Source: Undaria pinnatifida (Eukaryota; Sar; Phaeophyceae; Laminariales; Alariaceae). Taken from it: a stretch of 64,000 bases of DNA. Below are positions 3,037-57,567 of this stretch, piece by piece. The notes under the pieces were generated by a model. The model saw nothing but the letters and a program-made list of their open reading frames with translations. It was not told the origin of the DNA and searched no databases. The translations under genes and the position numbers were made by a program. The stretch spans positions 14,687,016 through 14,751,015 of the forward strand of contig JABAKD010000013.1 in NCBI GenBank assembly GCA_012845835.1, read 5' to 3'. Each line of letters begins with the position of its first letter. Position 1 is the stretch's first letter.

Positions 3037-3920
3037 TTAATTTAACATTAATACGCGCGATCGGAGGATCACACACAATGTTGCGAAGATCAGTGTCGAC
3101 CAAATCCTTGATCTCATAGCTGGAGTGTATTTTAATATTTTATGTGACCTAAACCTCTTGATCCCCCCCCCCCCTCCTTTTTTTTTGTTTTCTTCTTTTT
3201 TTGTATTTTCCTCGCTATCTCTTGCTTCAACGCCCCACCTAATATCAAAATCCGCCAGAGTAATAAACACTTCCACGTACTGGACATCGCCTCGTTATCG
3301 TTTTAGAACCGTCCATGCCGCTGCTGCAATTCCCACCCACCCCCGCCCTCAACGCCCCCTCCTTCCCCACCACCCGCATCATCGCCTAGACCTAGCACCA
3401 CGTGTATAGCAAATCCCTACATCTATACGACCTGAAACCCTTCCCCCCGCCCCCCGCTCCCCCCGGCACATTTCCCCCCCCTCCCCCACAAGAAGGATTT
3501 ATAGTTTCCACGCACAAATCGACCTGCCCCACCCGTCCCCTCCCCCCCCTCCCCCCCTCCCGCCCCCCTTTTGATCAAACTCAGGCCCCCACGTCCTTCA
3601 AAACTCCGCCCTCCCCTCACCGGTTATTCGACTTACAGGATTCCCTTGATAAACTGATGCATTTCCTTCCACAGCTGTCAGATTTTGTCCCCCTCAGGAA
3701 CGGGTTATATATTTTCCGCGCACAGACTGCCTAACATCACCCTGTTGACCCTGATAGCTACACTGCTGTGGTTGCAAGGGGAGTCGCCGACCTATATCCT
3801 TAATGAGGACACACAACCTGTAATACGCGCGATCGGAGTATCACACACAGCTTGCAAAGATGAGTTTCGACAAATTATTCGATCTCATAGCTGGAGTGTT
3901 TTTTTTTTTCATACTAAATA
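3037..3920 (-). repeat. FB-family modular repeat arm (reverse orientation)
   Basis: First copy of the window's main repeat family, C-rich on this strand. At its right end (about 3785-3900) is the family terminus, read here as its complement: GCTTGCAAAGATGAGTTTCG, then the AGCTGGAGTGT tip. Inward (leftward) come conserved modules such as the block ending in GGTTATATATTTTCCGCGCAC, separated by C-runs. A second terminus-like block (about 3048-3150) lies at the inner side. Near-identical blocks recur at 35.0-36.0 and 42.6-43.6 kb in this orientation and at 15.0, 16.7, 19.2, 30.1, 33.4 and 55.3 kb in the other. Proline-rich open frames here follow from the C-runs and are not taken as genes. Confidence 0.85.
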
Positions 3921-5888: not shown

Positions 5889-7388
5889 CGGTCTCCTGCA
5901 CTACTTGCATTTCGCGTGGAAACTCGTGAAAGCTTCCGTGGAAGCTTTCTCTGCTTCCATGGAAGCTTCCATGCAAGATATAGAAGCTATGGAACCTTCC
6001 ATGGAAGCAATGGAAGCTTCCATGGAAGCTTCCGTGAAAGCTTCCATGGAAGATATGGAAGATATGAAAGCTTCCACGGAAGTAACTTCCACGGGAGCTT
6101 CCACGAAAGCTTCACCGAAAGCTTCCATGGAAGTAACTTCCACGAAAGCTTCCATTCCACGGAAGTCTTCATGGAAGCTTCCGTGGAAGCTTCCATGGAA
6201 GATATGGAAGATATGAAAGCTTCCACGGAAGTAACTTCCACGGACGCTTTCATGGAAGCTTCCGTCAGCTTCCGTGGAAGCTTCCATGGAAGGTATGGAA
6301 GATATGAAAGCTTCCGTGGAAGTAAGTTCCACGGGAGCTTCCACGAAAGCTTCAACGAAAGCTTCCATGGAAGTAACTTCCACGAAAGCTTCCATGGAAG
6401 CTTTCATGGAAGTAATGGAAGCTTTCGCGGAAGTTATGGAAGCTTTCATGGAAGTAACTTCCACGGAAGTCTTCATGGAAGCTTCCGTGGAAGCTTTCAT
6501 GGAAGATATGGAAGATATGAAAGCTTCCACGGAAGTAACTTCCACGGAAGCTTTCATGGAAGCTTCTGTCAGCTTCCGTGGAAGCTTCCATGGAAGGTAT
6601 GGGAGATATGAAAGCTTCCGTGGAAGTACATTCCACGGGAGCTTCCACGAAAGCTTCCACGAAAGCTTCCATGGAAGTAATGGAAGCTTTCGTGGAAGTA
6701 ATGGAAGCTTCCACAGAAGTTACTTCCATGGAAGCTTAGGGTTAGGGTTAGGGTTAGAGTTAGGTTGCTTTCGTTGAAGCCCCCGTGAAAGCTTTCATGG
6801 AAGCTTCCGTGGAAGTTGTTTCCGAGGAAGTTGCTTCCGCGGAAGCGTTCGTGAAAGCTCCCGTGGAAGTTGCTTCCGTGGAAGTTGCTTCCGTGGAAGT
6901 TGCTTCCGTGGAAGTTGCTTCCGTGGAAGCTTTCACGAAAGCTTTTATGGAAGCTTCCGCGGAAGCAACTTCCACGGAAGCTTCCATGAAAGATTCCACA
7001 GAAGGGCTTCCGTGGAAGTTGCTTCGGTGGAAGCTTCCGTGGAAGCTTTCATGGAAGCTTCCGTGGAAGTTGCTTCCGTCAAGCTTCCGTAGAAGCTTTC
7101 GTGGAAGTTGCTTCCGTGAAAGCTTCCGTGGGAGCTTACGTGGAAGTTGCTTCCGTTGCTTCCGTGGAAGCTTTCATGGAAGCTTCCGTGGAAGTTGCTT
7201 CCGTGGAAGCTTCCATACTTCCATGGAAGTTTCCAATGCTTACACGGAAACTTCCACGCTTCCATGGAAGCTTCTATGGAAGCGATGGAAGCTTCCGTGG
7301 AAGTCGTAGAAGCTTCCATATCTTCCATGGAAGCTTCCATGGAAGCTTTCACGAGCTTCCACCAAACATGAAATAGTGCAGGTGGCCC
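5889..7388 (+). mobile_element. Palindromic-unit element 1 (B end left, A end right)
   Basis: A 1.5-kb block made of variants of a self-complementary 12-bp unit, GGAAGCTTCCAT, mixed with GGAAGTAACTTCC. It is bounded by related inverted ends. The left (type B) starts CGGTCTCCTGCACTACTTGC. The right (type A), read inward on the minus strand, starts GGGCCACCTGCACTATTTC. Both ends continue into GTGGAA and a TCGTGAAAGCTTCC stretch. The 12-bp unit has a length divisible by three and contains no stop, so all six frames stay open for long stretches (MEAS, GSFH and WKLP repeats). These are not treated as genes. A higher-order repeat of about 304 bp is visible (6251 and 6555). No target duplication was found at this copy. 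The same element recurs at 57568-58741 and 61253-62643. Confidence 0.85.
6736..6765 (+). repeat. Interstitial telomere-type repeat (TTAGGG)n
   Basis: Three to four TTAGGG copies and degenerate TTAGAG/TTAGG units sit inside palindromic element 1, with palindromic units on both sides. Read from the B end to the A end it is TTAGGG, the same polarity as in the other two copies. Confidence 0.95.
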
Positions 7389-8510
7389 CGCCGGCAGGGC
7401 GGCCGAGGCCGGAGGTTGGAGAGCACGCCCCCGAATCAATCGCGACCAAATACAATTCCTGCGACGAGCGGTGTGGGTCAAAACGCTAAGCGCAAGGCTA
7501 GAAAAATGGATTTATAGATATACATACATACATACAAAGACTCCGCATGTGTAGGGCAGGGTAGCACCCCGAATTGTTCGATTCCATATTTGATAGAGAC
7601 TAAAACAAATACTTCACACGTAAACATAGTCTACGCGTACAGTGTTTAAGATAGGGCCACCTGCATTACCTGCCGGCGCCGACCTCGTGGGGACCTGTGC
7701 GGGCGACAGCAAGGTCGAGATCTACGGCATGCTTAGCCCGCTGGGACAAACATGCCGTCCACGTCTCGGGGCGATATATATATGTATATATATGTCAGTA
7801 AACATGGGATAACTCAGCGAGGTTCCTTTTTCGTCTTTTCAGACAAGGCGTACAGCCTGCAACTTCCGACAACTGGGACGAGGTCTTGGGGCATAGGCCA
7901 CTACAGCGGGTAATACCAACGGGGATGTTGAGGCATGGTGCATGGCGCCTAAGATCCTGCTAAGCATCTGCTTGGGTGCAAGCTCAACGTCACTTTTTAC
8001 AACAACTACTGCGCTGTGTTCCAGGCATCAGTCAATCGACAGTCGACAATCCAGCGGTCAATCGAAAAAAATGTCGATTCAGCCGATTCCACAGACATAA
8101 TCATTTTTGTATACGGGGTTGTGTTTTGTTGCTGTTCGTTGCTGTTTGCTTTTGGTGCGTGCAGATTGTCTTGAATGGAGTGATTCACGCGTACATATCG
8201 TGTGTCCTTTCACACCTCAAAATGTGTACCTGTTGGTGAAAAAAAATCAGCTGTACTGTTGTGCTTCGCGGTGCGGGACATAACGCCCGCTATGTCAAAC
8301 TTTCTTTTAGATGTTGTCGACCACCGCCCAGCAGCTGCCACGACCATCGCCAGCACACTGCTGAGCACTACAGCGGCAGTAGTACTCTCCCACTCTCTCG
8401 CATCTGTCGACTGCCCAGCTCTCCATATGGACCCGCTGAGTCGGTCTCCGGCCAAGGGATCAAACACAGCCGAGGTCGTGGAAAACGTCGGCTGTGGGCG
8501 TAAATTATAG
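7389..8510. other. No gene seen
   Basis: Holds CATA and TATATATG microsatellite-like stretches (about 7520-7540 and 7770-7795). No coding sequence or repeat relation recognised. Confidence 0.35.
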
Positions 8511-12159: not shown

Positions 12160-13434
12160 GGCGCGTATGGTTGTTGAAACCTCGGCGTGCATATTGATTC
12201 AAAATCATGTCTGGGTCAAAATATCTAGCTTCGCCGGAGGCGCGGCCCTCCTCGCGAACGTGGTCGGTGGGGGGGTGGCTCACTGGCACCGTGGGTGAGC
12301 TGGTCTATGGCAAGGGGCTCTTCCAGGGGCGCCCAGCTTGTTTCAGAGGGACGTGGGGAGCCCGTGCTAGGTTGGTTCATCGGTGGACGGGGAAAGAAGC
12401 GAGAGCTAGCTGCATACTCTACTCGTAAGTTGGTGAAGTGAGCGATCGATGGGAAAGCTGCGAAGGGAGAGTGCCCAAAACCGCAACGACGCCATGTATA
12501 AAAGTATTAAAGGGCAGTTACAGGCACAGGCCACCCTTTCCAGGTTTCTGTACTATTAATAGGCAGGTTCCACGTTGGCCACTCACTTGTACTAGATAAG
12601 CTATTGTATTAGTTCCACAAACTCCACGGACGAACTGAATAGCATCCAATTCCGCGAGGCAAAAGCAGCATCCCCTATTTCCCATACGCACATGCCTTCA
12701 AAGGCATGTGAAACCCTTTTACATCCAGCCATATCCCATATGTTACGCCTTGTTAGGCTCCCAGGGGAATACCATAACACCTTTCTGATCTTCTTGCACC
12801 ATATTCTTCAGAACGCTTCCTCCTGCCGTTTTTTTGGGGGGGATTTTTCTTCTTTTTTCTCTCTTAGTTCTTATTTTACTGGTTTGTATGGTCTGGCTTG
12901 TAATGTTGTGAAATTGGGGTATTATTGCACCCGGTACGTTAGCATTTCAATTTCTTTACCTTGATAAATTGTGATTTTGTTTTATGTTTGCTCTTGTCTC
13001 AGTCTGTGACCACATCTTTGTATCTCTCTAGGATGAAGAATCAGCACGGCCACTGGATATACTGATGATGTCTTTGCGTAGAAAGAACGGCTTAATGTGA
13101 AGACAACCCTTTCGAGACTAGACTATATATTTTATGGTACTTTGTGGTTTAAAGTTTTGGTATACGTCATTAATTGCAGTTATTCAAAAAATCATCAAAC
13201 ATGAAATGTACAAATAAATACGAAAAACACAACGCACGAATGCACAATACGAACACCACAGGCAAGAGGTACAAAAACAGCGAATCTGCCGGCACGGCAC
13301 CATTGACTAATGGCTAAAGAGCGTGGCGGAGCAACCAGCTATACCACCACCGCCCACCGCCTTAGCCACCTTTACCAAAGCACAAGAAGAACAGCCATAA
13401 TAAGCACCAAGTGTGTGTTCGGTACGGTACGTAA
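12160..13434. other. No gene seen
   Basis: From about 12450 to 13300 the sequence is AT-richer with T-runs (about 12830-12880). No recognisable coding sequence, and no repeat shared with other parts of the window. Confidence 0.35.
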
Positions 13435-13870
13435 CGAGGCGTACCGGCGGTATATGCCGCCGGTATTACCGGTACCGGACACTTCGGTAAGTTCGGTACG
13501 GCTTCAATACCGGTACGACATCAATACTGGTACCGGAAATTTCGGTAAGTTCGGCACGACATCAATAGCGGTACTGGCGGTGCCAGTACAGACTTTCGTA
13601 CCTGTACCGGACAAATCGGTAAGAAGTTCGGTACGACGTCAATACCGGTACCCGACATTTCGGTAAGTTCGGTACGACATCAATACCGGTACCGGAAACT
13701 TCGGGAAGTTCGGGAGGACATCAATACCAGTACCGGCGGTACCGGTAAGCACGTATGCACCGAGCCGGTGCCGGTATTGGTACAACACCGCTACCGGTAC
13801 CGGACACCTCGGTAAGATCGGCACAACAGCAACCCGGTACCGGACATTTCGGTTCGTTTGGCACGATATT
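13435..13870. repeat. Minisatellite with ACCGGT/GGTACC palindromes, 41-48 bp
   Basis: Degenerate units of the type CCGGACACTTCGGTAAGTTC, then GGTACGACATCAATACCGG, repeat about every 41-48 bp. The joint between units is the palindrome CCGGTACCGG. Open frames (CPVPV or YRYR repeats) are by-products. Confidence 0.85.
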
Positions 13871-14440
13871 AACCCGATTCCACCACATTGTGACGTCATC
13901 CCTTGGAGCTTTGGCTCCAGGCAGCACCCCAGGCCACACACACCCTGGTCCCCAAGCATCTTCTAGTACGTTCGGTATGCCGAGACTCTGAGCACGCATG
14001 AACAACGACGCAAAATCCCAGAGGGAGGTGGCCTCCAGCAGTGGTGTCACCGCCTCTGGTGGAGGGTCATCTGTAAAGTGTGCCAGCTCCCACACACACC
14101 AGCGCCGGCGGCAGAAGTTATTGACAAGGACGCGGAAAAGAAAGCCGTGTCGGTGATTTTGCCTGCTCCTGTGTACAACTCGCTCACAGGAGACGTGCAC
14201 GAGTTGCCGGCGGAGATTATCAAAGCCGTCGATGGTTTCCCGGGGCCGGCCGGTTTTTGGGGGGGAAGGGACGCATGAAGCCTCGTTTATGTACTCGATT
14301 GGCGTGTACGTCGAAAAAAACGACGGGAAGACGGCGCCCTGCTGATAATCCAAATCGTACCTTACCTTTTGATCACCCTATCGAGGCGAAGAGAAAATAA
14401 GAGAAAAATGTTGAAAATATAAGAACCAATTATAGCTCAG
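13871..14440. other. Unique segment between two related minisatellites
   Basis: Both strands are open over much of this stretch. Minus strand 13880-14340 includes PEAVTPLLEATSLWDFASLF. Plus strand 14078-14278 includes AVSVILPAPVYNSLTGDVHE. Either could be a remnant of a host or mobile gene, but I recognise neither and cannot choose a strand. Confidence 0.25.
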
Positions 14441-14740
14441 TACAATTTTATACCTCAGCGGGTACCCCCGGCCAATACCGGACATGCTCTGTACATGTAC
14501 CATGTACCGCCAGTTAATGTCCAGTTTATGTACCTAAGCACAAGTGTGCGTCGGTACCTTACCGGCGATCTTTACCGCCGGTACTGCCGGTATATGTATT
14601 CAAGTGTGTGCCGGTGCCGGTAACGTTACCGGTACCGGACGCTTCGGTAAGTTCGGTACGACGTCAATACCGGTACCGGACACTTCGGTAAGTTCCGTAC
14701 GACATCCATACCGGTACCGAGAATGCCTGTACCGTACCTA
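14441..14740. repeat. Second copy of the ACCGGT/GGTACC minisatellite
   Basis: Same unit as 13435-13870. Two clean units at 14642 and 14683 are 41 bp apart. More diverged units precede them from about 14460, with TACCGCCGGTA and GTACATGTAC variants. Confidence 0.8.
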
Positions 14741-14967
14741 ACACACCCTTGATAAACACAGCCGACCACCAGCACCACACCGCAAGCACAGCCACTAGAA
14801 AGAAAGATTACCACATGGTACAATCGTTCTTGCGGCAGAGTTCGGAATACTCCATAAGAAGACGTCGCCCGTGTGGAAACACTTGTCGAAGTTTGAGCCG
14901 ACACAGTGCTCTAAAATTAAAACGTGAGAGCACGGTAGCCGCGACGTTTTCTGCCAAAAATAATATA

Positions 14968-16530
14968 TATATTATAAAAAATGAAAATACACTCCAGCTG
15001 TGAGATCGAAGATTTCGTCGAAACTCACCTTTTCAAGCTGTGTGTGATACTCCGATCGCGCGCATTACGAGTTGTGTGTCCTCATTAAGGATATAGGTCG
15101 GCGACTCCCCTTACAACTACAGTGTAGCTATCAGGGTCAACAGGGTGATTTTAGTCAGTCTGCGCGCGGAAACTATAAAACCCGTTTCTGAGGCGGACAA
15201 AATCTGACAGCTGTGGAGGGAAATGTATCCTTTTATCTAGTGAATCTTGTAAGTCGAATAACCGGTGAGGGGGGGGGGGAGTTTTGAATGACGTGGGGGC
15301 CTGGTTTTGATCAAAAGCGAGCGGGTTTGGAGGGGGAGGGGGGGGGGGAAGGGGGGGCAATTTGTGCATGTAAGCAATGAATCCTTTCGAGGGGAAAAAT
15401 CTGACGGTTTTGGCATCAGTTTATTATTGGGGCGGGGTTGGGGCGGGGGTGGGGCGTGTGGGGCAGCTCAATATGTGCGTAGAAACTATACATTATTTTG
15501 AGGGGATAAATGTGACGGTTTTGGAAATAATGCATCAGTTTATCATGTATATCCTGGGGTAAGTCGTACAATCAGTGAGTAGAGAGAGGGTGGAGTGTTC
15601 GAGGGGGTGGGGTTGGGATGGTTTTGGGGGGGGGGAGGTGGGGGGTGGGGGCGGGGGGGGGGCGGGGGAGGTGGGGGGTGGGGGCGGGGGGGGGGCGGGG
15701 GGGGGGCGGGGAAAGGAAGGGTTTTAGGTGAGGAGTTTGTTATACGTGTGGTGCTAGGTCTAGGCGATGGTGTGGGTGATGGGGAAGAAGGGGGCGTTCG
15801 GGGCGGGGGGGTGGGGAAAGCAGCGGCATGGATGGCTCTCGAAAGATAATGAGGTGATATCCTGTGCGTAAAGTGTTTATTAATCTGGCGGATTTCGATA
15901 TTTATTTGGTGGGGCGTTTGAGTAAGGGAGAGCGAGAGGGGGGGGGGGGGATTTTTTAGCAGGTTTAGGTCACAAATAATATTCAAATACACTTCGGCTG
16001 TGAGATCAAAGATATGTAGGGGCTTGTTGTACGCGTGGTGCTAGGTCTAGGCGATCGTGCGGGTGGTTGGAAAAGAGGGGGCGTTGAAGGGGGGGGGTCG
16101 GGGGGAAAAGAATTGAAAATTACGTCATGGATGGTCAGAAAGGTAATGACGTGATATCAACTGTGTATAGGTGTTTATTACTCTGGCCGATTTCGATTGT
16201 GAGTGGGGCGTTTGGACAAACTAGGCGGAAGGGGGGGGGGGATCGGGGGACGGGGGGGGGGGGGCGGGGGGGGGGGGGGGGAAGGGTTGGGGTTTTTCAT
16301 GAACAAGAGGGGTCAGGGGAGAGGGAGGGGAGGGGGGGGGGGGGGCGGGGGGCGGGACATTTCAATATGTGCGCGGAAACTATAAATCCTCGAAGGGGAC
16401 AAACCTGACGATTGAAGCCCTTTATATCATCTGGCTTGTAATGTTTACTATTCTAGAAGGTTTGATGTTCGATGCAGCATGCAACCCAGTGTTTATGTGT
16501 AGTAAATAAAGTGTTAAATCTTCATAAGTC
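14968..16530 (+). repeat. FB-family modular repeat, long copy
   Basis: Starts with the AT-rich lead (ATATTATAAAAA) and tip ACACTCCAGCTGTGAGATCG, then the terminus through TTTTCAAGCTGTGTGTGATA and CCGATCGCGCGCATTACG. Modules follow: GCGCGGAAACTATAAAACCC (about 15165), related ones near 15375 and 15475, then the GTGCTAGGTCTAGGCGATG block (about 15752) and the ATGGATGGCTCTCGAAAG block (about 15828). A second terminus-like block lies at about 15985-16015, then the GTGCTAGGTC block again, and an inner end at about 16360-16530 shared with 20.3 and 34.7 kb. Modules are separated by G-runs, always G on the strand read inward from the tip. Confidence 0.85.
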
Positions 16531-17545: not shown

Positions 17546-19235
17546 ACGATGGTACACTGTCTCGTCCGGGTTCGTGGTGAAACAGTATTGACACCGGCCA
17601 CAGCTGTGGGGAAACCAACAAGTCGTTGTGCGATACCGTCCCGTCATGTTCAGAGTTTTTACTCCAACAGTCCCGTCCCGCCCCGCCAATAGTTATATAT
17701 ATATATATCACCGTCGTCCCGTCTTCAATTTTTATCCCGTCAAACGGGTTAAAACTTTCCCGTGCCGTCCCATCTCAATAGTTACTCAAAGTGATAGGCC
17801 TTAGACGGTTCCGCCAGTCCCCCGTGGCCTTAAAAACGTGAATGGGATGAACGTAAGCTCTCTTCATGTATCCATACAGAGGGAACTAAGCTGTGGTTCC
17901 CGAGGTTTGACGATTTCCGTGAGGCGTTTTTCATAGGTCATTCTACCGGGTATGATCCTGGAGACATGATAGAGCTGTTGCGGAAAAGACAAGTTAAACA
18001 AAAATACAATAAAATAGGGAGCAAAACGGTATGGCCTGCGCGACCCCTTAAACGCCCAGCCATGTACATTCTAGTATAATGCTATCAACCGATATGTCCC
18101 TTGGGCACGTGCCCACCTGTCGTGCAAAACTGCTGCCTGCCACGGGCACGCTTGACGCATCGTTAATCAACCGCGACGCTTGTTCCAAACAATCGGGAAC
18201 AAAGATGAAAGTATCTCGTGCAGCTATATTTTGAAAATAAAAAGTTCACTCCAGCTGTGAGATCGAAGACGTTGTCGAAACTCATATTATTCGCACACTA
18301 CTAACTGTGTGTGATTTGCAGCTATATATCGTTACTGCTACTATTATTTCTGTAGAAGAAAGTGGTGACCAGTGCTAACCAAGGCTGACCAAGGCTGTGC
18401 TAGGCCAGGCTTAGCTACGGTAGGGTAGGGTAGGGTTCCCCTATTTCCCCTATTTAATAGCTGGTTTGAGCCACCGGTATCACTGAATCCGTGTACCTCA
18501 CGGACGAATATATTTTTGGCGGTTATTTCATGGCAGAGAAGCTTACCACTCCATCGCGGATTTTTTCATATCGCAGTTTGTTTAAAAACAGCACGAAAGC
18601 TTAAGGCCAAAGAGGCACCTGGGTTAGCTTACTAATGCGGTTACTGGCGCGAGGGACCTCGAGCAACTGCAGGTAAGCCCCCTAAACGTGACCAAGTGAC
18701 GTCACAAAATACATACGGTAGCCTGGGTCCCTACTGCTAATACTACTACTACTACTGCTGCAAAAAAAAGAAAGCGCTCAACTGTCTGATCTCTCCGGGG
18801 AGGTGGAGACATCGAGGTCGAGACATCGAGGTCGAGACATCGAGCGAGGTGGGCCCGCCTGGCAAGTAGCGATCCTGGTCTGGATCTTGATCGATCGAAA
18901 GCTCCACCGCCTCATGTGGACCGGACGTTTGAGTTTGTTTGCAATTAAGTCAAAAATCAAAGGGGTCAACAGCCTCCAGCGGCGTGTATCTAGGCGCAAT
19001 TCGATGCGAGTCGAACAGGAGGGGAGAAAGGGCTGAGTTATTTTCTGGACAGAAATGAAGGCGCTCACCCTCACACCGTAGTGGGGAGGGGGAAGAAGAG
19101 CCGCCCCAACGCCGGATCTGAGATACAGCTCCTTCATGTAGGAAGGGAAGGGGGAAGGAGAAAATAAAAGCGCGAAGACAATAACAATAGAAGGGATGAT
19201 GAGCACAAGAACGTACATCCCAGGTACCGGGTGTT
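17546..19235. other. No gene seen
   Basis: Contains an FB terminal fragment (listed separately), repeated TGCCGTCCCGTC-like words at about 17620-17770, a short GGTAGGGTAG run (about 18418) and a 15-bp direct repeat, CGAGGTCGAGACAT, about 18806-18845. A 146-residue minus-strand frame (18778-19218) has no recognisable features. Confidence 0.35.
18228..18325 (+). repeat. FB-family terminus fragment
   Basis: TTCACTCCAGCTGTGAGATC and GTCGAAACTCATATT match the family tip. The following part is altered by a short insertion, and no modules follow. Confidence 0.75.
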
Positions 19236-20516
19236 ATGATGAAAAAAAATATATACTCCAGCCGTGAGATCGAATATTTTGTCGAAACTCATCTTTGCAA
19301 GCTGTGCGTGATACTCCGATCGCGCGTATTATGGGTTGTGTGTCCTCATTAAGGATATAGGTCGGCGATTCCCCCTGCAACTACAGTGTAGCTATCAGGG
19401 TCAACAAGGTGATGTTAATCAGTCTGTGCGCGGAAACTATAAAACCCGTTTTCGAGGGGGACAAAATCTGACAGCTGTGGAAGGAAATACATCCATTTAT
19501 CAAGTGTATCGTGTAAGTCGAATGACCGGTAAGGGGAGGGCGGCGTGTTCAAGGGCGTGGGGGCCTGGGTTTGAACAAGAGGGGGCGGGGGGGGGGGACT
19601 CAAAACGTGCGTGGGGAAACTATAGATCCTTTAAAGGGATAAATCTGACGGTTTTGGAAGGAATGCGCCGGTTTATTATGTATATCCTGTATGTCGTATA
19701 ACCAGTGAGACGAGGGCGGAGTGTTCGAGGGGGTGGGGGGTGGGGTGGGTAGGGGGGGGGGGCAAAAGGGGTTTTGACAGCTTTAGGTCGCATAGATGTA
19801 GGGACTGACTATACGCGTGGTGCTAGGTATAGGCGATGGTGCGGGTGCTGGGGAAGGAGGGGGCGTTGGGGGTTGGGGGGCTTTAACAGGTTTGGGTCGC
19901 ATAGATGTAGAGGCTTGTTGTACGCGTGGTGCTGGGTTAGGCGATCGTATGGGTGGTGGGGAAGGAGGGGGGGGGGGGGGCGGGGGGGGGGGGGGGGGAT
20001 TAAAGCTACGTCATGGATGAATGGCTAGAAAGATAATGACGTGATATCAATTGCGTAGAAGTATTTATTACTCTGGCCGATTTCGATTTTAGGTGGGCCG
20101 TTTGAACAAGAGCGAACGCGGAAAAACGAACGGGGGGGGGGCGCGGAAATGAATTGGAGCTACGGCATGGATAGCTAAAAAGATAATGAGGTGATATCAG
20201 CTGGCTGGTAGTGTTTACTACTCTGGCAGATTTTGATTTCAGGTGGGGCGTTTGAACAAGAGGGATCGAGGGGGGCGGGGGGCGGGGGGCGGGGGGCGGG
20301 CGAGACACTTCAATATGTGCGCGGAAACTATAAATCCTTGAAGGGGACAAATCTGACGGTTGCAGCAATTATACATCCCTTTATATCACCTGCCTGGTAT
20401 TGTTTACTGAGTATTATTCTCGCGGATTTGATGTTATTATACAGTGTATAGCTTCATAATTTGTTACTACTGTAGTACATGGATCGCAAGATGGAACATT
20501 TCAATCGATAGGTACA
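19236..20516 (+). repeat. FB-family modular repeat, long copy
   Basis: Tip at about 19255 (ACTCCAGCCGTGAGATCGAA), terminus, GCGCGGAAACTATAAAACCC module (about 19428), a second related module (about 19610), two GTGGTGCTAGGT blocks (about 19817 and 19924) and two ATGGATGGCTAGAAAG-type blocks (about 20010 and 20166). The inner end, AATATGTGCGCGGAAACTAT (about 20312), runs into CATGGATCGCAAGATGGAAC. The inner end matches 34.66-34.98 kb, so it is a genuine part of the element. Together with the following duplication this is the most extended copy in the window. Confidence 0.85.
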
Positions 20517-29744: not shown

Positions 29745-29900
29745 AATTCGTATTTTTTTATCTCAATATTTTACTGAGGTCAACCGTGAGTTCGACGAAT
29801 TTCGGGTCAATACTCATCTTTGCAAGCTGCGTTGTTGGTACCTGCAATATACTATGTGGGCGAGTTTTCCTTAATAGGAGGGGTCCTATTATTTAGTTTC
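29745..29900 (+). repeat. FB subfamily B terminus
   Basis: Contains CCGTGAGTTCGACGAATTTC, then GGGTCAATACTCATCTTTGC, AAGCTGCGTTGTTGGTACC and the follow-on GGAGGGGTCCTATTATTT, matching 33283-33415. It is directly followed by a subfamily A terminus in the same orientation, as at 33.3-33.5 kb. Confidence 0.8.
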
Positions 29901-29916
29901 AAAAAATATATTATAA

Positions 29917-31060
29917 AAAATGAAAATACACTCCAGCTGTGAGATCGAAGATTTCGTCGAAACTCATCTTTGCAAGCTGTGTGTGATACTCCGATCGCGC
30001 GCATTACGAGTTGTGTGTCCTCGTTAAGGATATAGGTCGGCGACTCCCCCTACAACTACAGTGTTCAAAAACAGTGTTCAAAAAATATATATATTATATA
30101 TATATATATATATTATAAAAAAAAAATACACTCCAGCTAGCTGTGAGATCGAAGATTTTGTCGAAACTCATATATATTTGCAAGCTGTGTGTGACACTCC
30201 GATCGCGCGTATTACGGGTTGTTGTGTGTCCTCGTTAAGGATATAGGTCGGCGACTCCCCTTGCAACTACAGTGTAGCTATCAGGGTCAACAGGGTGATG
30301 TTAGTCAGTCTGTGCGCGGAAACTATAAAACCCGTTTCTGAGGGGGGACCAAAATCTGACAGCTGTGGAGGGAAATGTATCCGTTCATCAAGTGAATCCT
30401 GTAAGTCGAATAACCGGTGAGGGGAGGGCGGAGTTTTGAAGGACGTGGGGGCCTGGTTTTGATCAAAAGGGAGCGGGGTTGGAGGGGGGGGGAAGGGGGG
30501 GGGGGGGGACTGAGGGGGGGGGGGCGGACGGGTGGGCAATTTGTGCGTGGAAGCTATGAATCCTTTCGAGGGGATAAATCTGACGGTTTTGGGAAAGAAA
30601 AAGAAAAAAAATGCACCAGTTTATAATGGGGGAGTTGGGGCGGGGGTGGGGCGGGTGGGGCAGCTCAATCTGTGCATGGAAGCTATACATTCTTTTAAGG
30701 GAGTAAATGTGACGGTTTTGGAAAGAATGCATCAGTTTATCATGTATATCCTGGGGTGAGTCGTACAATCAGAAAGTAGAGGGCGGAGTGTTCGAGGGGT
30801 TGGGGGTGGGATGGGGTGGGGGGGTGGGGAGGTGGGGGGTGGGTGCGGTGGGGTGGGGGGGGGGGGGGGGGAAGGGAAGGGCTTTAGGGGGCATAGATTT
30901 AGGGGGTTGTTATACGTGTGGTGCTAGGTCTAGGCAATGGTGCGGGCGGTGGGGAAGGAGGGGGCGTTCGGGGCGGGGGGAGGGGGGGGGGGATGGGGGG
31001 GGGGAAGCAGCGGCATGGATGGCTCTAGAAAGATAATGAGGTGATACCCAGTGCGTGAAT
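29917..31060 (+). repeat. FB-family copies, a short one followed by a long one
   Basis: A first terminus (29917-30060) stops after CTACAACTACAGTGTTC. A second (from about 30100) follows a (TA)n lead, starts ACACTCCAGCTAGCTGTGAG and continues through the CGGAAACTATAAAACC module (about 30317), related modules near 30545 and 30675, the GTGGTGCTAGGTCTAGGC block (about 30918) and the CATGGATGGCTCTAGAAAG block (about 31013). G-runs separate the modules. Open frames are Gly- or Pro-rich artefacts. Confidence 0.85.
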
Positions 31061-31128: not shown

Positions 31129-31465
31129 TATTTGCCTCCAGACAAATAGTTGCGCAGGATTTCAAACGAGTATTTGCCTGCAGACAAATATTTGCGCAGG
31201 GTTTGAAAAGGGTATTTGCCTGCAGACACATAGTTGCGCAGGATTTCAACAGAGTATTTGCCTGCAGACAAATATTTGCGCAGGATTTGAAAAGAGTATT
31301 TGCCTGCAAACACACAGTTGCGCAGGAGTTCAAAAGAGTATTTGCCTGCAGACACGTAGTTGCGCAGGATTTCAAAAAAGTATTTGCCTGCAGACAAATA
31401 TTTGCGCAGGATGTGAAAAGAGTATTTATTTGCCTGCAGACAAATAGTTGCGTAGAATTTCAGAA
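31129..31465 (+). repeat. 42-bp tandem repeat array 1 (eight units)
   Basis: Units start TATTTGCCTGCAGACAAATA, a near-palindrome, and end TTTGCGCAGGATTTCAAAAG. They begin at 31129, 31171, 31213, 31255, 31297, 31339, 31381 and about 31427, a strict 42-bp (14-codon) period. In one frame they read VFACRQIFAQDFKR-type repeats and run without a stop into the hAT transposase remnant. Confidence 0.93.
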
Positions 31466-32261
31466 CAGCGAAGACACGGACTACTTGTTCGACATGCAGA
31501 TGGCCTTGCACCCCCACTCGGCTGACCTGGCGTGCGTGAACAAGCTAGCCCCGACGTCAAAGCGCGCTACCGCTGTCAAGTCGATCATCGTCGAGAAGGT
31601 GATCTCTTTGGCTGTGGAGCTAGCGGAGGCGGCGGCAGCCGCCAAGGAGGATGGGCCGGCGGGGCCTGCCGAGCCTGCTGCCGACCAGCCCGCTGCTTAA
31701 CGGGCTCGTCAAGCGGCTGCTCCCGGGAGTGTGCACCCCCTCTTCAGCGCCCCCGTCAACAAAAAAAAAAAGGCAACGGCAACCCTGTACGCCAGCCCCG
31801 GCTTGTTTGGGGTGGGGGGCGACGGGGCGGGAGAGGAGCCGCCGTCTTTCGAAGAGACTGCTCGTGCGGAGCTCACCAAGCTCAGGGCTGTCAACACCCT
31901 GACGGCCGAACTGAGCTGCGAGGATGTGCTCCTGTGGTGGAAGAGGTGGGCCGACTCGCACCCGCTGTTGGCCAGGATAGCACGCGTGATTTTCGGGGCT
32001 CCTGCGTCGGCGGCAGTGCTTGAGCGTGACTTCAGCGCTGCTGGGCGTATGATGACGTCCTCCAGGAGCACCATGGACAGCAAGTACGTGTAGATGATCC
32101 TGTTCCTTCACAGAAACCTAGACCTTATCCCTCAAGACATCCCGAAGCTGACCGAAGCTGTTGCGCGACACAAGATCCCCGGGCGACTGGTGGTCCCTGC
32201 GGAAGGGCTGGAGGAGCTCGACGGCGCTTTTGCGCCGGAGGACCTCACCGCCGAGCAGTAG
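31466..32261 (+). pseudogene. hAT-family transposase, C-terminal remnant
   Basis: One reading frame runs from the 42-bp array to TAG at 32259-32261, with in-frame stops at 31698-31700 (TAA) and 32091-32093 (TAG). The first part (TDYLFDMQMALHPHSADLAC, SIIVEKVISLAVELAEA) fits the helical region before the dimerisation domain. The region at about 31900-32130 matches the hAT C-terminal dimerisation domain: PLLARIARVIFGAPASAAVL then ERDFSAAGRMMTSSRSTM, corresponding to the family's P-L-x-x-xA, ipaSsa-xERxFS and R-x-x-M/L signatures. The stretch after the second stop (MILFLHRNLDLI) continues the domain, so that stop is a true interruption. The N-terminal zinc finger and catalytic part are missing, apparently replaced by the repeat array. 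Confidence 0.8.
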
Positions 32262-32774
32262 GCATCGGGGGAGGAGGCGGACGTTGAAACAGCATGGGAC
32301 AGCAGTATTAGCTTCATGGTGATCAGGCCCGCAGCGAGAACGAGTAGCAACATGTTGATGGTGTATGCAATAAGAGTTGATACAATCTCTCGTGTGATGC
32401 GGAATGAGTGGAGTTGCGGGGGGCTTGTGGCGTCGGCGTGTGTTGTGGTCTGTTTGTCTTCGTTCCAGGTGGCTTCGACTATTGTAGATGGCAGAAGTAA
32501 GAGTCGAGGGGGATGGCATGGCTAACTCGTGCAAATATTAAATATTACTGCCAAGTGGTACTGTTACTCCTACCTATGATATGCTAGTTCAATTTTCTCC
32601 CGGTTTGATATTATTTTTCTTCACCTCAATCCAAAGATACTTCAGACGCACGCTTCAGGGATTTATTTGCGCCTGTATATCCGAGACCACTCTCCCATTG
32701 CATGATGTACGGCTACGCTCTCCCTCCAACCCTCCCCGCAGTAGCTGTTTTTTCTTCAGAAACGTTGTCAGGAC
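32262..32774. other. Non-coding stretch between hAT remnant and array 2
   Basis: No coding sequence recognised. It may be the 3' untranslated part of the hAT element. Confidence 0.4.
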
Positions 32775-33225
32775 AAATACAAATAATAGTGTTTGCGCAG
32801 TATTTCAAACAAGTGTTTGCCTGGACAGGCAAGTATTTGCGCAGTATTTCAAAAGAGTATTTGCCTACAGACAAATATTTGCGCAGGATTTCAGCAGAGT
32901 ATTTGCCTGCAAACAAACATTTGCGCAGGATTTCAACAGAGTATTTGCCTACAGACAAATAGATGCGCAGGATTTTAAACGAGAAGTTGCCTGCAGACAA
33001 ATATTTGCGCAGGATTTGAAAAGGGTATTTGCCTGCGGACAAATATTTGCGCAGGATTTCAAACGAGAATTTGCCTGCAGACAAATAGTTGCGCAGGGTT
33101 TCAAAAAAGTATTTGCCTGCCAGACAAATATTTGCGCAGGATTTCAAACGAGAATTCGCCTGCAGACAAATAGTTGCGCAGGGTTTCAAAAACGTATTTG
33201 CCTGCCAGACAAATACCAAAAAATG
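32775..33225 (+). repeat. 42-bp tandem repeat array 2 (about ten units)
   Basis: Same unit and orientation as array 1, with unit starts at about 32858, 32900, 32942, 32984, 33026, 33068, 33110, 33153 and 33195 and more diverged units before. Both arrays are preceded by ACAAATACAAATA. Units vary in the palindromic half (TATTTGCCTACAGACAAATA and similar) more than in length. Confidence 0.92.
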
Positions 33226-33415: not shown

Positions 33416-33437
33416 TTTAATATATACTCCGGAGTAT

Positions 33438-35971
33438 ATATTATAAAAATAAAAATACACTCCAGCTGTGAGATCGAATATTTTGTCGAATCTCATCTTT
33501 GCAAGCTGTATGTGATACTCCGATCGCGCGTATTACGGGTTGTGTGTCCTCATTAAGGATATAGGTCGGCGACTCCTCTTGCAACTACAGTGTAGCTATC
33601 AGGGTCAACAGGGTGATGTTAGGCAGTCTGAGCGGGGAAACTATAAAACCCGTTTCTGAGGGGGACAAAATCTGACAGCTAGCTGTGGAAGGAAATGCAT
33701 CAGTTTATCAAGTGAATCCTGTAAGTCGAATATCCGGTGAGGGGAGGGCAGAGTTTTTGAGGACGTGGGGGCCTGATTTTGATCAAAAGGGGGGCGGGAC
33801 GGGGGGAAGAGGGGGAGGGGACGGGTGGGGCAGTTCAATTTGTGCGTGGAAACTATAAATATTTCTTGTGGGGGAGGGGGGGGGGATGTGGCGGGGGGGG
33901 GGGGGGGGGCGGGGGGGAGGGCTTTAGGCCGCATAGATGTAGGGGTTTGCTATACGCGTGGTGCTAGGTCTAGGCGATGGGGCGGGTGGTGGGGAAGGAG
34001 GGGGCGTTGAGGGCGGGGGTGGGTGGGAATTGCAGCAGCGGCATGGACGGCTCTGAAACGATAACGAGGCGATATCCAGGGCGTGGAAGTGTTTGTTTCT
34101 CTGGTGGATTTCGATAGTAGGTGGGGCGTTTAAGCGAGAGAAAGCGAGGAAAAAAAAAGGCGGGGGGGGGGGGGGGGGCGGGGGGAAGGGTTTTCAAGAT
34201 GTTTGGTCACATATAATATATAAATCACGGATTTGGTCGACACTGATGTTCGCAACATTGTGTGTGATCCTCCCATCGCGCGTACTAATCCTATATGTAG
34301 GGGCTTGCTATACGCGCGGTGCTGGGTCTAGGCGATCGTGCGGGGTGTGGGGAAGGAGGGGGCGTTGGAGGGGGGGAGGGGGGATTAATGAAAGCTACGT
34401 CATGGATGGCTAGAAAGAATATGACGTGATATCAATTGTTTAGAAGTGTTTATTACTCTGGCCGATTTCGACTGTAAGTGGGGCGTTTGAACGAACTGGG
34501 CGGGGAACAAAGGGGGGGGGGGGGAGATGAGTTGGAGCTACGGCATGGGTGGCTAGATGGATAATGAGATGATATCAGCTGGCTGGTAGTGTTTACTACT
34601 CTGGCAGATTTTGATTTTAGGTGGTGCGTTTAAACAAGAGGGATCGGGGGGAGGAGGCGAGCATTTCAATATGTGCGCGGAAACTATTGACCCTTGAAGG
34701 GGACGAATTTGACGGTTGCATCCAGAAGACACCCATATATATCACCCGCCTCGTAATGTTTATTTTTCTAGAAGGTTTGATGTTACATGTAGTATGCAAC
34801 CCAGTTCTTAGGTATAGTAAACAACGTGTTAAAAGCTTCATAATTTGTTATTGTACATGGATCGGAAGATAGAATATTTCAATCGATAGGTACAATCATG
34901 CAAATACCATTATTTTCTGACATCGCTAATTATAAGAAAGAGATGCACATTCCCAAATACAACAGGCGAGGTGATGTGGCCTTGCAATGTTGGAAGGTGT
35001 ATATACATCCATGACGTAGCTTTCATTAATCCCCCCTCCCCCCCTCCAACGCCCCCTCCTTCCCCACACCCCGCACGATCGCCTAGACCCAGCACCGCGC
35101 GTATAGCAAGCCCCTACATATAGAATTAATACGCGCGATGGGAGGATCACACACAATGTTGCGAACATCAGTGTCGACCAAATCCTTGATTTTTATATTA
35201 TATATGACCTAAACCTCTTGAAAACCCTTCGCCCCGCCCCCCGCCCCCTCCGCCTTTTTTTTTTTTTTTTCCTCGCTTTCTCTTGCTTAAGCGCCCCACC
35301 TACTATCGAAATCCGCCAGAGTGATAAACACTTCCACGCCCTGGATATCGCCTCGTTATCGTTTCAGAGCCGTCCATGCCGCTGCTGCAATTCCCACCCA
35401 CCCCCACCCCCAACGCCCCCTCCTCCCCCACCACCCGCCCCATCGCCTAGACCTAGCACCACGCGTATAGCAAACCCCTACATCTATGCGACCTGAAGCC
35501 CTCCCGCCCCCCCCCCCGCCACATCCCCCCCCTCTCCCCTCCACAAGAAATATTTATAGTTTCCACGCACAAATTGAACTGCCCCACCCGTCCCCTCCCC
35601 CTCTTCCCCCCCTCCCGCCCCCCTTTTGATCAAAATCAGGCCCCCACGTCCTTCAAAACTCCGCCCTCCCCTCACCGGATATTCGACTTACAGGATTCAC
35701 TTGATAAACTGATGCATTTCCTTCCACAGCTGCCATATTTTGTCGCCCTCAGAAACGGGTTTTATAGTTTCCGCGCACAGACTGCCTAACATCACCCTGT
35801 TGACCCTGATAGCTACACTGCAGTTGCAAGGGGACTCGCCGACCTATATCCTTACTGAGGACACACAACCCGTAATACGCGCGATCGGAGTATCACACAC
35901 AGCTTGCAAAGATGAGTTTCGACAAAATCTTCGATCTCACAGCTGGAGTGTATTTTTATTTTTATAATAAA
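33438..35971. mobile_element. Foldback-structured FB element with 0.97-kb inverted arms
   Basis: Left arm 33438-34408 and right arm 35006-35971 are near-perfect reverse complements over their whole length. Both carry the tip ACACTCCAGCTGTGAGATCG, the terminus, the CTATAAAACCCGTTTCTGAG module, the GGTGCTAGGTCTAGGCGATG block, the GCATGGACGGCTCTGAAACG block and the inner terminus-like block (TTTGGTCGACACTGATGTTC). They differ mainly in the lengths of G/C-runs. The spacer (34409-35005) is the normal continuation of the left arm and matches about 20030-20650. So a full copy is followed by an inverted partial copy. Long arms with internal repeated modules recall foldback (FB/Galileo-type) transposons. 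No coding sequence was found, and no target duplication is evident. Confidence 0.85.
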
Positions 35972-42564: not shown

Positions 42565-43642
42565 CATAATCAAACGCCTCCTTCTTCCCCACCACCCGCA
42601 CCATCGCCTAGATCTAGCACCACACGTAAACCAAACCCCAACATCTATGCAGCCTTAAGCCCTTCCCTTCCCCCCCCCCCCCCCTCCCCCCCCCCCCCCC
42701 CCGTCCCCACCCCCCACCTCCCCACCCCCCACCCCCCCACCCCATCCCACCCCCACCCCCTCGAACACTCCGCCCTCTGCTCACTGATTGTAAGACTTAC
42801 CCCAGGATATACATGATAAACTGATGCATTCGTTCCAAACCCGTCACGTTTATCCCCTTGAAATAATGTAAAGTTTCCACGCAAAGATTGAGCTGCCCCA
42901 TCCGCCCCACCCCCGCCCCAACCCCCCCCCCATGATGAACTGGTGCATTTTTGTTTTTCTTCCCAAAACCGTCAGATTTATCCCCTCAAAGGATTTATAG
43001 CTTCCACGCACAAATTGCCCACCGCGTCCGCCCCCCCCCCCCAGCCCCCCCCCCCCCCCCCCTTCCCCCCCCCCCTCCTCCAACCCCGCTCGTTTTTGAT
43101 CATAACCAGGCCCCCACGTCCTTCAAAACTCCGCGCTCCCCTCACTGGTTATTTACAGGATTCACTTGATAAACATATACATTTCCTTCCACAGCTGTCA
43201 GATTTTGTCCCCCTCAGAAACGGGTTTTATAGTTTCCACGCACAAATTGACCTGCCCCACCCGTCCCCTCCCCCCCCTCCCCTCCTCCCGCCCCCCTTTT
43301 GATCAAAATCAAGCCCCCACGTCCTTCAAAACTCCGCCCTCCCCTCACCGGATATTCGACTTACAGGATTTACTTGATAAACTGATGCATTTCCTTCCAC
43401 AGCTGTCAGATTTTGTCCCCCTCAGAAAAGAGTTTTATAGTTTCCGCGCACAGACTGCCTAACATCACCCTGTTGATCCTGATAGCTACACTGTAGTTGT
43501 AAGAGGAGTCGCCGACCTATATCCTTAATGAGGACACGCAACCCGTAATACGCGCGATCGGAGTATCACACACAGCTTGCAAAGATGAGTTTCGACAAAA
43601 TATTCGATCTCACAGCTGGAGTGTATTTTCATTTTTTATGAT
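42565..43642 (-). repeat. FB-family modular repeat arm (reverse orientation)
   Basis: C-rich on this strand. From right to left: AT lead (about 43630), tip and terminus (about 43625-43450), the GGGTTTTATAGTTTCC-type module twice (about 43430 and 43215), then modules near 42995 and 42870, a long C-run block and the CATCGCCTAGATCTAGCAC block (about 42601). Here the first module is duplicated relative to other copies. No opposite arm lies nearby. Confidence 0.85.
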
Positions 43643-44701: not shown

Positions 44702-47700
44702 ATTCAACTGAGTCGGGTAAGTTCCGCTTACTGCACAAAAACGTAACCAATTTGGTTTTCGGAGCCCGGGACGCACTGTTTTGCGTGTTGGTGTGGGACA
44801 CCAGCCGAAAGCATTGGGAGACCCTCCAGCAGCAAGAGGAGCGCGAGCGCAGGGCGTTGGCGGAGTTCATTCTGCAAGCTGGGGCAACGCGAGAGGTGGA
44901 GGCCGTGCCAGCGGCCGGCTGAAGCCGTAAATCAAGGTGACGATCGGAGAAGACAGACCGCCGAGGGTGGGTGGTGATATTGTTACCTTCGAAGGTACAC
45001 GCGAATTTCTTGTTGATTACTCGGAGTACGAGCAGCAGATGCATATAGCAAATCAAGATGGAGGAGACCGGGTCCTCGCGAAGACGTGAGAGCTAGTAGA
45101 CTCGGCGACCCAAATGATGGTGTCTGATGAGTTCTACGATGGCAAGCCCTGGGTCGACCTCTCCAAGGAGGAGCTAATGCACGGGCTCAAAAGGTTTGCA
45201 GGCGTTGATATGCAGCAGAAGAGTGATGAGAATTTTGCCGCCAGATATTCCGTGTGCTGAAGATGGATACGAGCGTGCCGGTAGATGGCAGGGCGTTCAT
45301 GCAAAAGCGTGCCCTGCGGAAATACCTTGCTGACAGCGGGCTCACGGAGGTGGTGAAGCACAACGATCGGCAGTACGTGCTAAAGCATTGCAAGGTGCTG
45401 GTTGAGGCAATAGCGGCGGGTATCGAACCACTCGAGTTCCCACCGCAAGGTGGAAAAGAAGGTGCGTTTCGACCTCGTAACGCATGACCCTGACGTGTTG
45501 TTCAACATTATTGCCAAGCAGCCGGGACCAAGCCGTAATTGAGGCCAATGGTGCTGAATGTTGGCAAACAGCAAAGCGGCGTGACGGTAGGTCGATGGCT
45601 GCTGCGGGGACCAAGCTGCAGGGAAGTGCTGCTGACGAGCACGACTCACGCGAGAAAGTCAAGGTTGCTGGTGTGAAATCAGAGCGGAATCGTCGGTACG
45701 ACAATAACGACTGTTTCGTATGTGGCAAGCAGGGGCGCAAGTAGTGAGACCGCCCCCAAAGCCAGCAGAATAAGGCGGGGGAATGCGTTCATAGACAGAG
45801 CCACAGCTTGACCCCCATACAGCAGCAGCGGTCCACAACCGTCCCGCTCAGCATACCCGGAGCGAGACAACTGGGATGGCCCCTGTCTCTGCCACCCCTG
45901 GAGCTAGTGGGTACCAGACCGCCTCAAAAGCGGTGGTTACGAAGACCGAACCTTCTGCGCCTGAAGCGTCTACGCAGAATGACGACGACTACGTGTACAT
46001 TTACGTACCGTGGGAGAAGATGGGGCCAGTGGATACCGGGTTCACCGAGACGGTGCAACACCAGGTTTCCCAAACCGCTGGGCTGCAGAATGCGGCACCA
46101 GTTCTTCACTCCGTTCCGGTGCAGCCGCCGGCACCCGCGTCACATCGGTGGGGTGGAGATTCCGGCACCATTTATCCCGCGCGTGTTGCGGTCGTGCAAC
46201 CTGGCAGATGTGGTGACGCGATCTTGGATTCGGTAGAGAACGAACCGCATATGGAGGGCCTGACCCAGCATCTCGCGGGGCGTCTTGCGGTTTCCGGTGC
46301 TTCCGTGGCTGCTGAGGTCAGGGTGCTCATAGATTATGGTTCAAGCATCACAGCCATGACGGAGGAGCTGGTACAGGCCCTGCGGAGACAGCCGGGGATG
46401 ACGTAAACCGCGTTAATGCAGGCGTTTGTTGGGAATGCGCGTGTGGTGACGTTGTTGGGCCAGGAGTGTGATATCGAGACGCAATCGTGTCCGCTCCACC
46501 TAACGATTGATACACCATGGGGACCAGTCCCATTTATCATGCCGTTTATCGTGCTCCCTTGGGGAGGCCATGTGTTTATCATCGGGCGGAAGACGCTGAG
46601 AGAGAAACTCGTCATGGACGTCATGGCGCAGCTCAAGGCCTCGGTACTGAAGCCACAAGGACGTCAAGATAGCGGTGGGATGGAGCTTACAGCTCGTTCT
46701 GCGGGCGAGCGCAACGATACTTGTGTGCTGCGAGCGGCGATGGCTGTCACAGCGTTCGTGCCGGGCGGCGACGATCCAGGCGACATGGACAATGAGGTCA
46801 CATTGACGCTACCGTCTCAACGAGCCATGCTATTCCAGGATTCCGAGATGGAAACCCGGGATTGTTTGGGCGTGTTGGAGACGGCTGTCGATAACGCTGT
46901 TGACCATGGCCCCCCGCCGGAATGTGCCAAGATGTTGCGCGATATCGTTTTTCTCACGCACCTTAACGTGCTATGTCGGGCGTTGTTGGGTGATCCACCT
47001 GCACGCAAGAAGCCTGTGGCGGTCCGGCTTTGTTCAGGTGCAAGGGTGGTGCGAGCGAAGCCCCCACCTGAACGTAATCGCCTACTGTGGAATACGGCAG
47101 ATTCTTGCTGCGACTGCCGCTTGGTGGTGACGATGAGTTCGTCATCAAGGTGGCCTGGGAAAGGCCGGAGGAGGCAAGGGGCACCTCGGAGTCGGTGGCG
47201 CGCGTGTTTGATGGCGCGCCGGCCGTGGTGTAAAAATAGTTCACGGCGCTGCGGCTGAAGACGGATCAGCAGCGGGCACTCGTACAGCGGTGTGGACAAC
47301 GTTTGTGATCGCACTGTGGTTTGGGGGGGGCGCGGATTTTGAGTTGCTGATTTTCGGTTTTGTCTGAATTTTGGATTTCTATTTTTCTGAGTTGAAGGCT
47401 TTGCGCAGGGCGCTGATAGCTTCTGACGCAGCCACAGCTGGCGGTTCATCGCCGAGGCTTTGTATGGACAGAGCATGTCCGCGGTTGATGCTTCCGTTTT
47501 AGGGTAACTGTTGTACTAAAATAGACATTCCATGTGTGGTGTGGGTTTCGGCAAGTTGCATGCGCAATTGGAGGTGTGACGCCTGGTGTGTGTTTTCTTG
47601 AAGATCCATTGGTGATGCCGCGGTTGCTGAGCAATCATTGTTCACGGCCAGTAAACGTGGCAGATCTTAGGTCGTGGTGAAACTGACACGAGTTGTTGGA

Positions 47701-55334: not shown

Positions 55335-56130
55335 CATATATATTATAAAAATTAAAATACACTCCAGAAGTCTGTGAGATCCAAGATTTCGTCGAAACTC
55401 ATCTTTGCAAGCTGTGTGTGATACTCCGATCGCGCGCATTACGAGTTGTGTGTCCTCATTAAGGATATAGGTCAGCGACTCCCCTTACAACTACAGTGTA
55501 GCTATCAGGGTCAACAGGACGATTTTAGTCAGTCTGTGCGCGGAAACTATAAAACCCGTTTCTGAGGGGGACAAAACCTGACAGCTGTGAAGGGAAAGGG
55601 GGGCCTGGTTTTGATCAAAAGCGAGCGGGTTTAGAGGGGGGCGGGGGGGGGGGGGGGAAGGGGCAATTTGTGCATGTAAGCTATAAATCCTTTCGAGGGG
55701 ATAAATCTGACGGTTTTGGCACCAGTATATTATTGGGGGCGGGGGGGGGAGGGGGGGTTGGGGCGGGGGGGGGGGGGGGGGGGGGGGGGGGTTGGGCGGG
55801 GGGGGGGGGTTGGGCGGGGGGGGGGGGTTTGGGCGGGGGGGGCAGCTCAATATGTGACTGGAAACTATACATTATTTTGAGGGGATAAATGTGACAGTTT
55901 TGGAAATAATACATCAGTTTATCATGTATATCCTGGGGTAAGTCGTACAATCAGTGAGTAAAGAGAGGGTGGAGTGTTCGAGGGGGTGGGGTTGGGATGG
56001 GTTGGGGGGGGAGGGTGGGGGGTGGGGGCGGGGGGGGGGCGGGGGGGGGGGGGGGGGGGGGGGGGAAGGGCTTCAGGTGAGGGGTTTGTTATACTTGTGG
56101 TGCTAGGTCTAGGCGAAGGTGCGGGTGATG
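55335..56130 (+). repeat. FB-family modular repeat copy
   Basis: Lead and tip at about 55340-55375 (ACACTCCAGAAGTCTGTGAG), terminus, CGGAAACTATAAAACCCG module (about 55542), further modules at about 55675 and 55860, very long G-runs at 55740-55840 and about 56005-56065, and the GTGGTGCTAGGTCTAGGCGA block at about 56096, where it breaks off. It closely resembles the 14.97-kb copy. Confidence 0.85.
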
Positions 56131-57559: not shown

Positions 57560-57567
57560 AACTAAAC

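Follow-up and report, generated by a model that had tools for sequence, protein, structure and literature searches.

The three blocks of short tandem repeats detected in the analysed window, a stretch of 64,000 nucleotides from the genome of Undaria pinnatifida, very probably represent a non-autonomous, foldback-type family of DNA transposons that is moved in trans by cut-and-paste. A preliminary description regarded the blocks as discrete units that can spread, and this view is supported by the recurrence of their ends, by 8-bp duplications in most two-ended copies, by variation in length, and by one related empty site.

The repeat unit GGAAGCTTCC, with at most one mismatch, matches the window at 113 places compared to 2.3 expected in shuffled sequences, and all 113 matches are located within the three blocks. 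A 14-bp extension of the unit had been noted as a perfect palindrome, and ATGGAAGCTTCCAT is indeed its own reverse complement. The initial wording that the blocks are “filled” with the unit is loose, as the unit mask covers 79% of block 1, 59% of block 2, and 56% of block 3. In addition to the unit, TTAGGG repeats are present in all three blocks, and block 3 also includes a non-repeat centre. According to the centre sequence, blocks 1, 3, and 2 are assigned to subfamilies I, II, and III.

Block 1 (positions 5889–7388, plus strand) is a two-ended copy of 1500 bp oriented from end A to end B. Its terminal inverted repeats span positions 5889–5945 at end A (plus strand) and 7332–7388 at end B (minus strand), with approximate inner limits derived from alignments of 28 A ends and 28 B ends. 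In the centre, (TTAGGG)3 in the A-to-B direction occupies positions 6736–6753 of the plus strand and continues as imperfect units to about 6764. No target-site duplication was recognised in the flanks of this block, TACCTTAA and CGCCGGCA. About 265 bp past block 1, at positions 7653–7672, there is a lone sequence GGGCCACCTGCATTACCTGC, which matches end B in 18 of 20 bases and has no array behind it. This sequence could be left over from a further copy, and it may have a bearing on the missing duplication of block 1.

Block 2 (57568–58741, minus strand, 1174 bp) is inverted with respect to blocks 1 and 3, with the B end at 57568 and the A end at 58741. It is flanked by AACTAAAC (57560–57567, plus strand) and AACTATAC (58742–58749, plus strand), two copies of a target-site duplication alike in 7 of 8 positions. 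Three telomere-like stretches are present in this block. The one at 58443–58460 (minus strand) reads (CCCTAA)3 on the plus strand, equivalent to TTAGGG when read from A to B, and another, at 58005–58029 (minus strand), has the same orientation.

Block 3 (61253–62643, plus strand, 1391 bp) is two-ended and oriented from A to B. Its non-repeat centre, at about 61880–62100 (plus strand), is common to other subfamily II copies, and a 300-bp query across this centre revealed 80–86% identity to them. The block contains (TTAGGG)3 in the A-to-B orientation at 62012–62029 (plus strand). The copies of its target-site duplication, AACAGCCC (61246–61253, plus strand) and AACAGTCC (62644–62651, plus strand), are alike in 7 of 8 positions, and are obtained only if a one-base slip is allowed at end A.

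Abrupt boundaries had been reported for all three blocks, and we located them at 5889 and 7388, 58741 and 57568, and 61253 and 62643 (A and B ends, respectively). Five of the six block ends reach a score of at least 24/37 in the end scan; the B end of block 1 remains under this value owing to a slight shift. The end core GGNCNCCTGCACTA is matched exactly at the six block ends and nowhere else in the window. When three mismatches are tolerated, 51 matches are obtained, with 50 expected, and loose matching therefore carries no signal.

The ends are conserved as initially proposed, but the two of them are not alike: they form an imperfect inverted pair in which the outermost 7 bp differ, being CGGTCTC at end A and GGGCCAC at end B. 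Ends of the family can be described as polarised imperfect terminal inverted repeats, of which A begins with CGGTCTCCTGCACTACTTG and B with GGGCCACCTGCACTATCTGC. Consensus sequences based on alignments of 28 copies are CGGTCTCCTGCACTACTTGCATTTTGCGTGGAAGCTCATGAAAGCTTCCGTGGAAGC for A and GGGCCACCTGCACTATCTGCATTTTTGGTGGAAGCTCGTGAAAGCTTCCATGGAAGC for B. Inward of the outermost seven bases, A and B are imperfect inverted repeats of each other, and the array unit appears already in their inner part.

To follow the ends genome-wide, as had been suggested in the preliminary description, we searched 511,146,479 bp of the genome. The loose end pattern CCTGCACTAYNTGY matched 798 times, compared to 47 times when reversed. 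For the 20-base B end, 189 exact occurrences were counted, compared to 0 for the reversed control. The 100 of these 189 places that were listed are distributed on 15 contigs. The same two ends recur in elements of variable length, from 175 to 3657 bp. The exact B-end 20-mer is borne by 18 of 28 sampled copies, as counted by eye, and on the basis of this fraction and the counts of B-end and pattern matches we infer a family of roughly 300–400 copies genome-wide. In viral contigs, no match to a 22-base piece of the array was detected.

The set of 39 two-ended copies examined further is composed of the three blocks in the window, 25 copies from places matching the loose pattern, partly picked for visible opposite ends, and 11 copies sampled by the B end alone (minus-strand B end, one per contig from C20 to C30). 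Three of the 39 are short (175, 206, and 333 bp), and the other 36 measure 0.8–3.7 kb. In the sample based on the B end alone, an A end was found in 11/11 copies, ten of them by the scan and the remaining one (L063) by a looser scan that also sought the duplication and is thus not fully independent. Loci left out of the set are L003, with both ends and three bases of left flank, L007 and L047, each with a single end, and L018, with one marginal end (24/37). Six of the first 30 pattern matches had no end at 24/37. Of four single-ended loci on contig C1 that were followed up, three turned out to be paired elements of 2.0–2.2 kb, and L007 is still single-ended.

Insertion is reflected in the flanks. 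With ends fixed, 27 of the 39 copies lie between 8-mers that agree in 7 or all 8 positions, the two 8-mers being identical in 16 of these copies, compared to 2 in 1482 cross pairings. Other duplication lengths from 5 to 11 bp are found in no more than 4/39 copies. The 12 copies without a duplication at fixed ends include blocks 1 and 3, the latter having one when a slip of one base is introduced. When such a slip was allowed in the first 28 copies, the number with a duplication rose from 17 to 23, with 4 of 756 cross pairings. Copies sampled by the B end alone show the duplication in 10 of 11 cases, the exception being L064. A 114-bp two-ended piece (L038:142–255; 2/8 positions alike) was left out of the 39; if it is counted, the result is 27/40.

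A search with 20 junctions against 51 records disclosed one clean empty site. The joined flanks of the element in L034 show 82.6% identity over 218 bp to L049, where a single TTCATTTC is present and the element is missing. A second spanning match, in L046, corresponds to an eroded junction.

The occurrence of three copies in one 64-kb window, two of them only 2.5 kb apart, could also be envisaged as one local segmental duplication of a minisatellite, with the “ends” being ordinary flanking DNA. We consider this scarcely credible, because the 300-bp flanks of the three blocks have no similarity between blocks, a result that answers the refuting condition named in the preliminary description. 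Similarity between different flanks is confined to block 2, whose left and right flanks match each other over 60 bp at 77% and over 19 bp at 89%. Moreover, the flanking duplications of blocks 2 and 3 differ and block 1 has none, and the B end is dispersed over 15 contigs in the 100 places listed. Recurrent ends, 8-bp duplications, and the empty site therefore identify the blocks as transposons and not as products of segmental duplication.

The general layout, deduced from 20 copies, consists of end A, an array, usually a centre, a second array, and end B; as a rule, this centre consists of (TTAGGG)n. With all copies oriented from A to B, the 39 together contain 115 TTAGGG motifs and one CCCTAA. 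A near-match to two TTAGGG units in the A-to-B direction was observed in 32/39 copies, one of which (J2) has it in the other direction as well, and seven copies are without it. Outside the blocks, the window has no exact double TTAGGG unit and one near-match. Junction sequences of the telomere-like centre are similar within subfamilies, indicating that the centre is inherited and not inserted afresh each time. In a separate case, a stretch similar to TTAGGG/TTGGGG is positioned just outside an element copy (L055:3560–3660), and not inside it.

Single-strand folding, evaluated against 30 shuffled versions of each sequence, gave z-scores of −11 to −24 for five pieces of blocks, compared to −0.3 to −1.0 for four flanks. 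Since the arm unit is itself palindromic, arms can pair with themselves and not only with each other. The 25 longest alignments between different copies show identities of only 74–83%, and the ends and duplications are better kept. This difference suggests either that arms change fast or that the ends have been maintained by selection through many rounds of movement.

Among successive array units at distances of 9–60 bp, 1226 of 1400 spacings are divisible by three (770/941 if spacings of 12 are omitted). Together with a stop-free stretch of 881 codons in one copy, this regularity could be taken as a coding signal, with arrays being a present or former protein gene with a four-residue repeat (E-A-S-M). 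Such an origin is very improbable. The consensus unit is stop-free in all six frames, which accounts for the long open frames, and open stretches switch from one frame class to another. In 20 copies, two frame classes contain few stops on either strand (0.65–0.98%, compared to 5.2–5.6% in the third). The coding explanation was rejected, as the scarcity of stops is much alike on the two strands. Spacing in threes apparently arises because variants of the unit measure 9, 12, and 15 bp.

Returning to transposition, a transposase made elsewhere would recognise the unequal ends, which are conserved among copies. The element would then be cut out and inserted at cuts staggered by 8 bp, leaving the 8-bp duplications observed in the flanks; cut-and-paste is presumed here in preference to copying. 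The arms, seen as the 12-bp self-complementary unit and its variants continuing from the inner border of each inverted repeat, have probably grown from this border by slippage and unequal exchange. The (TTAGGG)n centre, with one orientation and a single exception, and inherited within subfamilies, may have no role at all.

Duplications are present also in the three minimal copies: L056 (175 bp, 8/8), L019 (206 bp, 7/8), and L033 (333 bp, 8/8). These short non-coding members of a single terminal-inverted-repeat family conform to the description of MITEs. They are almost armless and carry the same duplication, suggesting that long arms and the centre are probably not needed for insertion; alternatively, they could have been lost by internal deletion after insertion. 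The opposite possibility, that the arms and the one-way telomere-like centre are functional and not just baggage, is improbable. In that case, hairpins extruded from the self-pairing 12-bp units would either shape the transposition complex or break and re-grow the element, and polarised TTAGGG repeats would recruit telomere-binding or telomerase activity to heal or copy it. If true, the element would be a foldback transposon equipped with a telomere-like module of its own.

In the search for the transposase, the interior of the longest copy (L031, 3657 bp) was screened, and none associated with these ends was found in it. Six ORFs of this copy compared with Pfam gave no transposase, and one match was below the cut-off. 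The copy may hold a nested insertion. Duplications produced by MULEs are 8–11 bp long, commonly 9 bp; KDZ and P elements make 8-bp duplications; hAT elements are known for characteristic termini and a T/A-biased target. An 8-bp duplication fits hAT, P, and some MULEs, and the termini of the kelp family do not fit hAT.

Within the transposon interpretation, a MULE transposase of this genome is a possible mover, and the family would then be of Mutator-like (MULE/Phantom) foldback type, as Tm1. Scoring of 150 out of 172 candidates gave 111 MULE matches genome-wide. According to the available parts of its description, Tm1 shares the plan of units of about 14 bp in inverted repeats, unequal 7-bp outermost motifs, and duplications of 8–10 bp, and its A1 motif CGGTTAA starts as does end A, CGGTCTC (PMC3169594). 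However, duplications in the kelp family are 8 bp long with no signal at 9, the length reported in the same parts for most Tm1 copies, and no MULE match lies closer than 30.9 kb to a listed B end (100 out of 189, up to contig C30). In ten of the 111 MULE loci (eight with 1.5-kb flanks and two of 7 kb), no end of the family was detected; the best scores were 16–17/28, and one shuffled locus reached 16.

A hAT transposase is a rather doubtful candidate for the mover. Duplications of 8 bp are typical of the hAT superfamily, and at least 150 matches to the hAT dimerisation domain were obtained genome-wide when 150 out of 371 candidates were scored. Against it, the termini CGG.../GGG... are unlike hAT ends, and in 15 inspected duplications T is at position 2 in six and A at position 7 in one, compared to the T/A bias expected. 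The hAT match nearest to the 100 B ends listed out of 189 is 25.7 kb away; it is a relic in the window, and the distance is measured to block 2. This relic, a dimerisation-domain match at 31914–32120 on the plus strand with one internal TAG (E 3.6e-12), has an array of 42-bp repeats on either side, at 31129–31462 and 32792–33215. Three ORFs of the region 31129–33215, starting with ATG, GTG, or TTG, gave no Pfam family.

The mover may also belong to a further class that generates 8-bp duplications, either KDZ, a P-like class as in Galileo, or an undescribed one. The combination of 8-bp duplications with unusual termini is in accord with this, and Galileo, in the accessible part of its description, is foldback-shaped and classed with P by its transposase (PMC3573991). 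Merlin (IS1595-like) is unlikely, as PF12762 has 0 matches in the genome.

The kelp family is placed with foldback elements by terminal inverted repeats that enclose a middle part and contain short repeats in varying number, and by dispersed copies bearing an 8-bp duplication. Foldback elements are a structural group and not one lineage, as indicated in the accessible text of PMC3169594. The preliminary description knew of no described family of this composition. A unit of 12 bp that is a palindrome and a telomere-like centre of fixed polarity set the family apart from Tm1, but the class is not new in kind, as foldback elements with internally repetitive inverted repeats have been described, as evident already from the parts available (PMC4079207, PMC3169594).

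Structurally closest are Tm1 and Tetris, and Tm1 is the nearest in plan, down to its unequal 7-bp termini. Tm1 is a Mutator/Foldback family of root-knot nematodes, and the accessible portion of its description reports composite inverted repeats in which a unit of about 14 bp is repeated a varying number of times, unequal 7-bp outermost motifs, one of which begins with CGG, and duplications of 8–10 bp (PMC3169594). As in the kelp family, the copies are mostly non-autonomous and MITE-like, with no two identical. In the same portion, Tm1 differs by duplications of mostly 9 bp and by one copy that encodes a MULE transposase, and no telomere-like centre is mentioned there; in the kelp family, the unit itself is a palindrome.

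Tetris is a foldback transposon of Drosophila virilis, and the part of its description considered here reports an apparently non-autonomous element with modular tandem-repeat arms and a variable middle, 8–9 bp duplications in complete copies, and a shorter MITE-like relative, DAIBAM (PMC4079207). The two are distinguished by scale, as Tetris has units of about 220 bp and three complete copies in that part, compared to a 12-bp unit in the kelp family, of which one end occurs in 189 exact copies. In addition, Tetris units gave rise to kilobase-long satellite arrays (PMC4079207, same part). Galileo, of the P superfamily, and the founding FB element of Drosophila share with the kelp family long inverted repeats with internal tandem repeats and a variable middle. 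Galileo encodes a P-type transposase, whereas none was found in the kelp family, where L031 was screened.

The motif TTAGGG is the telomere motif of Ectocarpus according to the available section of PMC11541908. The subtelomeric satellite described there is likewise a brown-algal repeat, with TTAGGG motifs in each monomer, and the likeness is one of description only. Its arrays are almost exclusively subtelomeric, and that section reports no dispersal with ends and target duplications (PMC11541908). Among the listed literature matches, no title or beginning of an abstract pointed to a foldback element from a brown alga, or to one that contains telomeric repeats. A text search for the array and end sequences gave one paper, which is unrelated.

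In Drosophila, foldback-type elements have been linked with inversions of chromosomes and with the origin of satellites, as stated in the parts available of PMC3573991 and PMC4079207. In the kelp family, the palindromic unit is so short that the unit, the arm, and the whole element can each self-fold. Ends shared by copies from 175 bp to 3.7 kb offer a natural series in which to follow how foldback arms grow and whether they act. The family is also a possible marker for strain comparison in farmed kelp.

Other repeats were noticed in the window as well. At positions 13407–14750, a second element-like block is composed of ACCGGTACCGGT-type palindromic arrays with a 41-bp period, flanking a non-repeat middle. 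A candidate imperfect inverted repeat is located at its ends, CCAAGTGTGTGTTCGGTACGGTACG and TCAAGGGTGTGTTAGGTACGGTAC, and the block is possibly a member of another foldback-type family. A retroelement-like ORF at 46416–47258 has 243 relatives at E 0.001 or better, and two of the 120 relatives listed contain PF00078, which we take to be reverse transcriptase. Finally, ACTCCAGCTGTGAGATCGAA, followed by G-rich runs, is located close to one end of a further dispersed repeat, which occurs many times and in both orientations, at 3200–3920, 14960–15830, 19230–20270, 29900–30990, 33430–34650, 35000–35970, 42570–43640, and 55340–56170.
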